Source of the DNA: Prochlorococcus marinus str. MIT 0917
GTDB taxonomy: Bacteria; Cyanobacteriota; Cyanobacteriia; PCC-6307; Cyanobiaceae
Direction: 5' to 3'
Assembly: GCF_027359575.1 (NCBI RefSeq)
Contig: NZ_CP114784.1
Location: forward strand, 620,001 to 684,000
DNA length: 64,000 nt
Under the pieces are notes generated by a model, which made no database searches, had not been told where the DNA came from, and saw only the letters and a program-made list of their open reading frames with translations. Each line of letters begins with the position of its first letter. Position 1 is the first letter of the stretch. Below are positions 41,931 through 45,134 of this stretch, piece after piece. Position numbers and translations under genes: made by a program.

Positions 41931-43421
41931 GTGAGAAAAATTTTCCTAATTTTTCCGAATCAATTATTCAAAATAAAAAAACAATTTTCTGATGTAAAGC
42001 ATGTTGCTTTAATCCAAGATAACTTATTTTTTGGTTGTGATTCCCAGTGGAAACAAAAATTTCATTGTCAAAAAATAATTTTTCACATGGCCACGATGGA
42101 CTCTTACGAACAAGAGCTGAAATCTCACGGTTTAAGTGTCATCTATATAAAACATAAAAAAGAAACCAGAACTGAAGATAATCTTAATTATCTATCAGAA
42201 AAAGGTTTTAATTATTTTATTACTTATGAGGCATTTGATTGGTCTTTAGAAAAAAGAGTTAAGGATTTCTCTTTGAAAAATAATTCAAAGTTAGAAATAA
42301 GAAAAAATGATATGTTTTTAACTGGACATGAGATATCTGAAGAATTCCTTAATCATAAAAAAATTCATGGAATGCATAAATTCTATAAGATTCAAAGAAA
42401 AAAACTAAATATTCTTATTGAAAAAGATGGTTCGCCAACAGGTGGTGCATGGAATTTCGACAAACTAAATAGAAAAAAAATACCAAATTCAATTAAAATT
42501 CCAAAAATACCAACTCTAAAAGCAAACAAATTTATAGATAAAGCGAAGAAAGATGTTTCTTTGAAATATAATGAATATTATGGTAAATATGAGGACTTTA
42601 ATTATCCTATATCTCACAAAGATGCAGAAGAATGGTTAGACAATTTTTTAATTGAAAGATTGAATTTATTTGGAGATTACGAAGATGCAATACATTCAAA
42701 CCATAGAACACTTTGGCATAGTGTTATTTCTCCATTAATTAATTCCGGATTACTTACTCCAAGACAAATAATAGAAAAATCTTGGTATTTTTATCAATCG
42801 AATAATATTGGGATTAATTCCTATGAAGGATTTGTTAGACAAATTATTGGCTGGCGTGAATTTATCCTATTGATATATAAACGAAATAGTTTAGAACTCA
42901 GAAATGGAAACTTCTGGGATTTTGAGGATAAACCAATACCTTCAAGTTTTTACACTGGTCAAACGGGAATAAAGCCATTAGATGACACAATACAAAAAAT
43001 TTTAGAAACCGGATATGCTCATCATATAGAAAGACTGATGATAGTTGGAAATTTAATGCTTCTATGCAGATTCCACCCAAATCAAGTATACAAATGGTTT
43101 ATGGAGTTATTTATAGATGCATATGATTGGGTTATGGTTCCAAATGTTTATGGAATGAGTCAATTTGCTGATGGAGGACTATTCACAACTAAGCCATATA
43201 TTTCAAGTTCTAATTATATAAAAAAAATGTCTAACTATAAATCTGAAGATTGGTGCTCAACTTGGGATAGCCTTTTTTGGACATTTATAGATGACTATAA
43301 AAATAAGTTCAAGGACCAATATCGATTGTCTATGATTTTAAGAAATCTAAAAAAAATGGACCCTAATAAAAAAATGAACTACAGGCGTAATGCTAATGAA
43401 TTCATATCTAATCTAACTTAA
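41931..43421 (+). CDS. Photolyase-related protein of the FeS-BCP / prokaryotic (6-4) type
   Basis: The 496-residue flavoprotein has the N-terminal alpha/beta domain of deoxyribodipyrimidine photolyase-related proteins (LIFPNQLF, LIQDNLFFG). It also has the helical FAD domain with YEGFVRQIIGWREF, GYAHHIERLMIVGNLMLL and DAYDWVMVPNVYGMSQFADG. These match bacterial (6-4) photolyases such as PhrB. The C-terminal Fe-S cysteine loop seems shortened: after KKMSNY only one Cys remains (DWCSTW), so the cluster may be lost. GTG start. Probably repairs or senses UV damage. Confidence 0.85.
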   Translation: MRKIFLIFPNQLFKIKKQFSDVKHVALIQDNLFFGCDSQWKQKFHCQKIIFHMATMDSYEQELKSHGLSVIYIKHKKETRTEDNLNYLSEKGFNYFITYEAFDWSLEKRVKDFSLKNNSKLEIRKNDMFLTGHEISEEFLNHKKIHGMHKFYKIQRKKLNILIEKDGSPTGGAWNFDKLNRKKIPNSIKIPKIPTLKANKFIDKAKKDVSLKYNEYYGKYEDFNYPISHKDAEEWLDNFLIERLNLFGDYEDAIHSNHRTLWHSVISPLINSGLLTPRQIIEKSWYFYQSNNIGINSYEGFVRQIIGWREFILLIYKRNSLELRNGNFWDFEDKPIPSSFYTGQTGIKPLDDTIQKILETGYAHHIERLMIVGNLMLLCRFHPNQVYKWFMELFIDAYDWVMVPNVYGMSQFADGGLFTTKPYISSSNYIKKMSNYKSEDWCSTWDSLFWTFIDDYKNKFKDQYRLSMILRNLKKMDPNKKMNYRRNANEFISNLT

Positions 43422-43543: not shown

Positions 43544-43993
43544 GTGACGCTGAAAATTGGTGATCAGATTCCATCGTTTTCTTTGAAAGATCAAAATGGA
43601 AACATCAGGACATCCAATAAAATAAAAAAGCCTCTGGTCTTGTTTTTTTACCCAAAAGACGATACTCCAGGCTGCACTATCGAGGCTTGTGGATTCCGAG
43701 ACAAATATGATCTTTTTAAAATTCTAGGAGCTGAGGTGTGGGGAATAAGTAATGGCAGTATACAAAGTCATCTTGGATTTGCTAATAAAAATAAACTTCA
43801 GTATCCATTACTTTGCGACCAAAATAATATTATTAGAAAAGAATTTGGTGTGCCAAAAAAACTAGGATTAATCGAAGGGAGAGTAACATATATAATAAAT
43901 TGTGAAAGAAGAATAATACACATATTTGAAGACCTTTTAAATGGTCCAGCTCATATAAAAGAAGCTATAAAAGCATTAAAAAAACTTCAATGA
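43544..43993 (+). CDS. Peroxiredoxin Q / BCP
   Basis: This 149-residue thiol peroxidase carries the peroxidatic and resolving cysteines five apart in DDTPGCTIEACGFRD (about residues 39-53), the atypical 2-Cys PrxQ arrangement. It reduces peroxides with electrons from thioredoxin. It starts with GTG between the two photolyase-like genes and is in the same direction, so the run looks like a photo-oxidative stress cluster. Confidence 0.92.
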   Translation: MTLKIGDQIPSFSLKDQNGNIRTSNKIKKPLVLFFYPKDDTPGCTIEACGFRDKYDLFKILGAEVWGISNGSIQSHLGFANKNKLQYPLLCDQNNIIRKEFGVPKKLGLIEGRVTYIINCERRIIHIFEDLLNGPAHIKEAIKALKKLQ

Positions 43994-44021: not shown

Positions 44022-45134
44022 ATGAATATTTTTGAAGAGGCTAATGATGTATTAGATACTTTTATCATCAATCACCTTATTTCATACCATCAGCTAAGAA
44101 ATTACGATTTCGGTATCAAAAAAAGAACTAATGTTTCTCAAATTTCTAAATATACATCTCATAGAATCCTTTACGAATACGCTATAGTTGAAAAATTAAA
44201 AAGAATTGATAAGAAAAAAAAGTATACTGATGAAATTCTCTGGAGGATATACTGGAAGGGTTATCTTGAAAATTACAAATCAATATGGTTTGAATATATA
44301 AATTTTAAAGAATATCCAAATAATTCAAACTTAATTAGTGCAATGGATGGTAAAACAGGTATAGATTGCTTTGATACTTGGATAGAGGAGCTTAGAGAAA
44401 ATAACTATTTACATAATCACTCAAGGATGTGGTTTGCAAGTATATGGATTTTCACTTTAGGACTTCCATGGCAACTAGGTGCAAGATTTTTCATGAAACA
44501 TCTATTTGATGGGGATGCTTCATCAAATACCCTTAGCTGGAGATGGGTAGCGGGCATGCACACAAATAATAAGCCTTACTTAGCATCCAAAGAAAACATC
44601 AATAAATACACAATTAATCGATTCAGGAATACATCGATTAGCAGATCAAACAAAATTAAACCAATAAAAAGTAATAAACATCAATCTAATAAACTTCCAG
44701 TTCAAAGAAGTTTCTCTAACAGTAATATTCTACTAATGTTCGACAATGATATGAATATTTTGAACAGATCTAAGTTATTCAATTCATACTGTAAAGTTTA
44801 TATATTGAGCAATGGAATAACCAATAATAGATTTGGGCTAAGTGAGAAAGTAAGTCAATTCAAATTAGGTTTAATTGATAATATAAATAAATTAATCCCA
44901 AACTCAGAAATATTTGAATCAAGAGACATAGAAAAATTTTTGTGTGATCACAGATGTATTGATGTTATCTACCCAGGAGTTGGTCATAATCTAGATTTGA
45001 TAAATAAATACGCTAATCAAAATCAAATTATTATTAATTATATATATAGAGAAGAAGATCTTAAATATTGGAATTATGCAAATTCAGGATTTTACAGATT
45101 TAAGTCTTCATTTCATAGAATTAATAAAATCTAA
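44022..45134 (+). CDS. Photolyase/cryptochrome FAD-binding domain protein with rearranged domain order
   Basis: The first 210 of 370 residues are a compact photolyase FAD domain: SHRILYEYAIV, DEILWRIYWKGYL, MDGKTGIDCFDTWIEELREN, HNHSRMWFASIW, LGARFFMKHLFDGDASSNTLSWRWVAG. The usual N-terminal antenna domain is missing. Instead, residues from about 235 form a Rossmann-like C-terminal segment (NILLMFDNDMNILNRSKLF, KVYILSNG) that resembles a displaced antenna domain. This suggests circular permutation or a fusion. Catalytic ability is uncertain. It follows prxQ by 28 bp. Confidence 0.75.
   Translation: MNIFEEANDVLDTFIINHLISYHQLRNYDFGIKKRTNVSQISKYTSHRILYEYAIVEKLKRIDKKKKYTDEILWRIYWKGYLENYKSIWFEYINFKEYPNNSNLISAMDGKTGIDCFDTWIEELRENNYLHNHSRMWFASIWIFTLGLPWQLGARFFMKHLFDGDASSNTLSWRWVAGMHTNNKPYLASKENINKYTINRFRNTSISRSNKIKPIKSNKHQSNKLPVQRSFSNSNILLMFDNDMNILNRSKLFNSYCKVYILSNGITNNRFGLSEKVSQFKLGLIDNINKLIPNSEIFESRDIEKFLCDHRCIDVIYPGVGHNLDLINKYANQNQIIINYIYREEDLKYWNYANSGFYRFKSSFHRINKI

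Follow-up and report, generated by a model that had tools for sequence, protein, structure and literature searches.

A phr7-type (NewPHL) photolyase gene with reversed domain order in Prochlorococcus marinus MIT 0917

The window, that is the whole stretch of 64,000 nucleotides analysed here (positions 620,001 to 684,000 of contig NZ_CP114784.1), belongs to a genome of Prochlorococcus marinus str. MIT 0917 that consists of one contig of 1.92 Mb with an estimated completeness of 100%. On the plus strand, at 44022..45134 (stop codon included), lies an open reading frame with an ATG start and 370 codons for amino acids, identified as a phr7-type (NewPHL) photolyase gene from its PF03441 match, its full-length relatives and its place in a phylogenetic tree. 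On the same strand, a PhrB-type photolyase-related protein, by resemblance of the Phr2/PromaPL kind, is encoded at 41931..43421 (PF04244, E 1e-50; PF03441, E 3.3e-6). This gene ends 600 bases upstream of the phr7-type gene, and the one small gene between them, an open reading frame for 149 residues at 43544..43993 (plus strand), has a product that we take to be a peroxiredoxin. Other neighbours in the window presumably are psbA and pcb.

The encoded protein has three parts. Residues 1-200 (44022..44621, plus strand) form the FAD-binding catalytic domain, here placed first; residues 201-233 (44622..44720, plus strand) are a basic linker with eight lysines or arginines, no aspartate or glutamate, and lower confidence in the AlphaFold model; residues 234-370 (44721..45131, plus strand), with predicted strands and helices, form a Rossmann-like alpha/beta domain, named 'Z-domain' in PMC9426592. 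The original prediction had placed the FAD motifs at residues 60-190 and the alpha/beta segment at 235-370, and this is where they were found: WRIYW at 74-78, TGIDCFDTWIEEL at 112-124, HNHSRMW at 131-137 and DGDASSNTLSWRW at 163-175, followed by NILLMFDNDMNILNRSKLF at 235-253. In a Pfam scan residues 71-187 matched PF03441 above the family cut-off (E 2.3e-19), residues 235-370 given alone matched no family, and neither PF00875 nor PF04244 was matched anywhere in the protein.

The AlphaFold model, calculated with 48 sequences as input, reached a pLDDT of 89.4 and a pTM of 0.89, and shows no strands, only helices, as far as residue 196; starting at residue 236 it has five strands with helices between them. 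By structural alignment, residues 1-216 fit the C-terminal catalytic domains of photolyases with known structures, with Z scores of 13-16 among the 50 matches listed (1iqr: Z 16.2, rmsd 2.5, 205 aligned residues). The structural alignment starts at residue 1-3, and the N-terminal antenna domain by which a canonical photolyase or cryptochrome is recognised is thus absent from this end of the protein. Since PF03441 lies at 71-187, the structural alignment is to catalytic domains, and strands occur only from 236 on, the order of FAD domain followed by alpha/beta domain is real. The reversed order noticed in the original prediction is thereby confirmed by Pfam, AlphaFold and structural alignment, and it has already been published, as PMC9426592 and PMC13274461 describe.

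The survey of homologues that had been proposed as a check showed the reversed order to be common to Prochlorococcus-type genomes, SAR11, SAR86 and alphaproteobacteria. Among 300 genomes of the family, 233 had some match, and the majority of the matches listed span the FAD part only; 47 matchless genomes are unlisted, so the denominators for single groups are incomplete. Of the 24 same-genus genomes that were hit at all, 15 had a match that began no later than residue 11 and reached at least residue 368; 14 of these matches are free of stops and one contains an in-frame TAA. All 23 'g18' genomes that were hit had such a match as well. Because near-full-length matches recur in both sets, a frameshift or an assembly artefact is ruled out. 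Besides the window's own copy, the 13 open full-length same-genus copies are 60-83% identical to it. Three same-genus copies (G224, G248, G255) contain in-frame stops, which could mark pseudogenes or reflect draft-assembly errors; the match to G248 is broken into three pieces, and that to G255 starts only at residue 227.

A scan of contigs gave 71 loci, with titles naming Prochlorococcus, Pelagibacteraceae or Candidatus Pelagibacter (SAR11), SAR86, one Paracoccaceae MAG and one gammaproteobacterial MAG. A C-domain profile matched 10 of 190 genomes from the class to which the Paracoccaceae MAG belongs. Protein matches spanning the query numbered 96 over 104 loci, some genes being counted twice owing to two retrieval routes. 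Matches were also found in 148 plasmid records, seven of which were looked at in detail, and five alphaproteobacterial plasmid proteins (Niveispirillum, Asticcacaulis, Ruegeria, Peteryoungia, Novosphingobium) have the same layout. The other two, from plasmids of Deinococcus psychrotolerans (L178) and Persicobacter (L179), are also FAD-first and extend the layout beyond cyanobacteria and proteobacteria; the Deinococcus protein has CxxC-type cysteines and a C-domain that touches PF00875 with E 0.001, below the cut-off. In other genera of the family, 8 of 20 stretches (L105-L124) carry an Fe-S reversed-order photolyase like phr6 in one long open frame, and in the remaining 12 the matched frame contains the FAD half alone. 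Twelve stretches from viral contigs matched a pattern and none of them encodes a relative, while 10 of 50,697 phage records were hit, always within residues 5-187, at less than 60% identity and over less than 80% of the query.

The relationships among these proteins were assessed in an unrooted tree of FAD domains with 43 rows, from which PhrB-type and class II enzymes were left out. A branch with support 100/100 divides 34 rows from nine ordinary photolyases, two of which (L160, L179) sit on long branches. The 34 rows comprise 12 Phr7-like, 12 alphaproteobacterial FAD-first and 10 Phr4/6-type sequences, the last assigned by resemblance to the description in PMC9426592 and including three FAD halves without a second domain in frame (L107, L120, L121). 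The 12 Phr7-like rows, with the window's protein among them, form one group (98/90), and together with the alphaproteobacterial FAD-first rows they make up a group of 24 (100/99).

This position agrees with published descriptions. According to PMC9426592, Phr7 occurs in all LLI strains of Prochlorococcus and in the majority of HL strains, has its FAD domain N-terminal and its Z-domain C-terminal, and lacks Fe-S cysteines; the same paper states that this kind is a CPD photolyase for single-stranded DNA (ssDNA), as shown in Dinoroseobacter shibae and Methylobacterium mesophilicum. The window's protein shares with Phr7 the organism group, the FAD-first order, the short C-terminal domain and the lack of Fe-S cysteines, and no difference was found from Phr7 as known here by its description. 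In PMC9426592 the word NewPHL is not used, and the link of Phr7 to NewPHL is through shared species and a shared reference. NewPHLs or SPLs are described as repairing CPDs in ssDNA with an 'inverted domain topology', and the D. shibae and M. mesophilicum NewPHLs are named (PMC13274461); compared by description, these two share the inverted order with the window's protein and are assigned to the same kind by Haney et al. The Synechococcus Phr4/5 and Cyanobium Phr6, which also have inverted domains (PMC9426592), likewise place the FAD domain before the alpha/beta domain and, with rows assigned by resemblance, are grouped with the window's protein by the 100/100 branch. They differ, however, in their Fe-S cysteines (PMC9426592), seen as a CxxC motif, and in having a C-domain more like the antenna domain of ordinary photolyases. 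SPL (Xu et al. 2021), described as being without an N-terminal alpha/beta domain (PMC9649867, PMC9498864), shares this absence with the window's protein, which differs in having an alpha/beta domain at the other end (234-370). The ordinary CPD photolyase of the same genome (C1:1680088) has the same FAD domain and active-site residues, but differs by its N-terminal PF00875 antenna domain.

Taken together, the gene at 44022..45134 is with high confidence an ordinary member of the NewPHL class, the phr7 of Haney et al., and is predicted to encode a flavin-dependent CPD photolyase that probably acts on ssDNA; membership in NewPHL is drawn from its relatives and from the statement of Haney et al., the sequences of the two characterised enzymes lying outside the comparison. 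Both the gene family and its reversed order have been published, also for this genus, and the present locus adds one more genome to a known family.

The original prediction further proposed a circular permutation or a replacement of the antenna domain of ordinary photolyases. In a literature search on circular permutation and photolyase, neither term appeared in the titles or abstracts returned. Pfam scans of the C-domains of 48 relatives matched no family in more than three of them (best E 0.0057), and a sequence profile search of the PDB with the C-domain gave no matches at E up to 10. We compared C-domain profiles in a stepwise manner. The C-domains of the 48 relatives matched those of 12 alphaproteobacterial FAD-first proteins, themselves uncharacterised, with E 7.7e-14 and an hhalign probability of 98.1. 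The alphaproteobacterial C-domains (12 rows) in turn matched the N-domains of ordinary photolyases (16 rows) with E 9.3e-5, an hhalign probability of 59% and 121 colinear columns, and the Phr6-type C-domains (10 rows) with E 1e-4, and the latter matched the ordinary N-domains with E 9e-11. Among six fused Phr6-type proteins, four (L111, L116, L122, L178) touched PF00875 with E 0.001-0.013, below the cut-off, and two (L123, L179) did not match it. As controls for the alphaproteobacterial profile, 27 other families yielded no E value below 0.053, and 100 column shuffles none below 0.0067 with the ordinary N-domains or below 0.034 with the Phr6-type C-domains; the control set comprised 28 families, one of them the Phr7 family itself and the other 27 including PhrB-type photolyases, and was made up of neighbouring genes without selection by fold.

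A plain fusion, in which an unrelated Rossmann-like domain without kinship to the antenna domain was joined to a short photolyase, would fit several other results. Compared directly, the C-domain profile of the 48 Prochlorococcus, SAR11 and SAR86 members matched neither the ordinary N-domains (E 0.86) nor the Phr6-type C-domains (E 0.18). When 10 Phr7-type rows were added to the alphaproteobacterial profile together with L161 and L164, it matched ordinary N-domains less well (E 0.0086, probability 4.7%). Nine profile comparisons were made in all, and the favoured value for NewPHL-type C-domains against ordinary N-domains is the best of three (0.86, 0.0086 and 9.3e-5); the same three profiles gave 0.18, 3.5e-4 and 1e-4 against Phr6-type C-domains. 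With the PhrB-type family the alphaproteobacterial profile had no match (E 0.056 over 35 columns).

The C-domain modeled in isolation had a pLDDT of 78.6. In structure searches with this domain alone, phosphopantetheine adenylyltransferase came out on top by E value (4.5e-4), and Can2 came first by Z score (7.7), with universal stress proteins and a photolyase N-domain both at 6.5. The search therefore did not separate photolyases from nucleotidyltransferases, Can2 and universal stress proteins, which a plain fusion would also accommodate. On the other hand, 137 of 157 residues could be aligned to the photolyase chain 3fy4_C (rmsd 4.4), and this alignment, the profile chain and the weaker scores of the controls speak against a plain fusion, which we regard as the less probable but still serious explanation. 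The permutation proposal thus stood in part: the alternating strands and helices and the alphaproteobacterial profile favour it, while the direct profile comparison and the non-discriminating structure search do not. Judged from these profiles, the C-domain may be related to the ordinary antenna domain, though diverged from it, and because the stepwise chain through the alphaproteobacterial proteins holds, we lean slightly towards permutation, as a possibility with a chance of one half or a little better. The more specific reading, that the C-domains of NewPHL/Phr7 and of the Fe-S-containing Phr4/5/6 are the ordinary antenna domain, relocated to the opposite end by a single shared inversion, we consider to have an even chance.

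In a pairwise alignment, E71, W74, N132, M136, W150, N169, W173 and W175 correspond to E274, W277, N341, M345, W359, N378, W382 and W384 of the E. coli photolyase, and all eight are invariant in the 48 aligned relatives. H133 stands in place of R342, again in 48 of 48. For the E. coli residues we assume the roles commonly given to them, with W306 as the outer electron-transfer tryptophan. The W306 position is occupied by F95 in the pairwise alignment and by D, F, E or another residue, never W, among the 48 relatives. This is in line with a tryptophan dyad as read from the pairwise alignment, although the column is badly aligned across families, with E, P, T or R in the nine ordinary photolyases; 'a mere Trp dyad' is also described for the D. 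shibae NewPHL (PMC8948257). The protein lacks an Fe-S cysteine set: it has only four cysteines, at 116, 257, 308 and 312, and none of them falls in the region behind the FAD motif that contains CxxC in Phr4/6-type proteins.

The enzyme would reverse UV-made cyclobutane pyrimidine dimers (CPDs) under blue or UV-A light, probably in ssDNA. From the family and the papers on it, FAD would be photoreduced through a relay of two tryptophans, W173 and W150, and the resulting FADH- would pass an electron to the dimer that W74, W175, E71 and N132 would hold. In the abstract of the founding study on NewPHL, the C-terminal domain reportedly seals the FAD site, and here it may likewise cover the FAD face instead of carrying an antenna dye.

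Some photolyase relatives are sensors, and the C-terminal domain of the window's protein is large, which might suit a light sensor of the cryptochrome type that has lost repair, as the original prediction offered. We consider this very unlikely, given that the CPD-site residues and the two electron-transfer tryptophans are invariant in 48 of 48 relatives and that relatives repair CPDs according to PMC9426592 and PMC13274461; judged from the alignment, the conserved residues are the equipment of a CPD-repair enzyme and not of a sensor without repair. Still more improbable is a broken or decaying photolyase that survives by chance, to which one same-genus copy with an in-frame TAA and two more in pieces with stops would point, against 14 same-genus copies that are open over their full length, full-length copies in every matched 'g18' genome and the invariant catalytic residues.

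The neighbouring PhrB-type gene is a possible functional partner. A PhrB-type relative was present in the flank (up to 5 kb, less at contig ends) of 63 of the 71 phr7-type loci (L034-L104), in both Prochlorococcus and SAR11. None was seen in the flanks of three SAR86 loci (L046, L048, L096) or of L041 and L099, nor in L040, L097 and L098, which lie on contigs that are short or break off close to the gene, and it was absent from all three 'g18' stretches examined. The intervening 149-residue gene had a relative in nine of the 71 loci, all nine titled Prochlorococcus. Because the pairing recurs, we infer that the two genes may belong to a shared UV-repair module. As argued by Haney et al., Phr2 without an Fe-S cluster may act on CPDs (PMC9426592), and PromaPL of P. 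marinus is counted among the 6-4 photolyases (PMC9178010).

Three photolyase-family genes were found in this genome, versus four in all LLI strains according to PMC9426592, a comparison that applies if the strain is LLI. No phr1 was seen here, whereas PMC9426592 reports phr1 in all LLI strains, a contrast to which the same proviso applies. The only gene with an N-terminal PF00875 domain is G000:C1:1680088-1681539, and two other same-genus genomes likewise have one; a 'g18' phr1-like protein, assigned by resemblance, matched only this gene in the present genome.

The evolutionary point touched by these results is whether photolyases of reversed order are permuted two-domain enzymes or short forms of ancestral type, the view argued in PMC9649867 after Xu et al. 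and reported in PMC9498864. If there was one shared inversion, SPL and NewPHL would be rearranged photolyases and not primitive forms that never had the domain, and this would bear on the claim that SPL/NewPHL lie at the root of the photolyase family.
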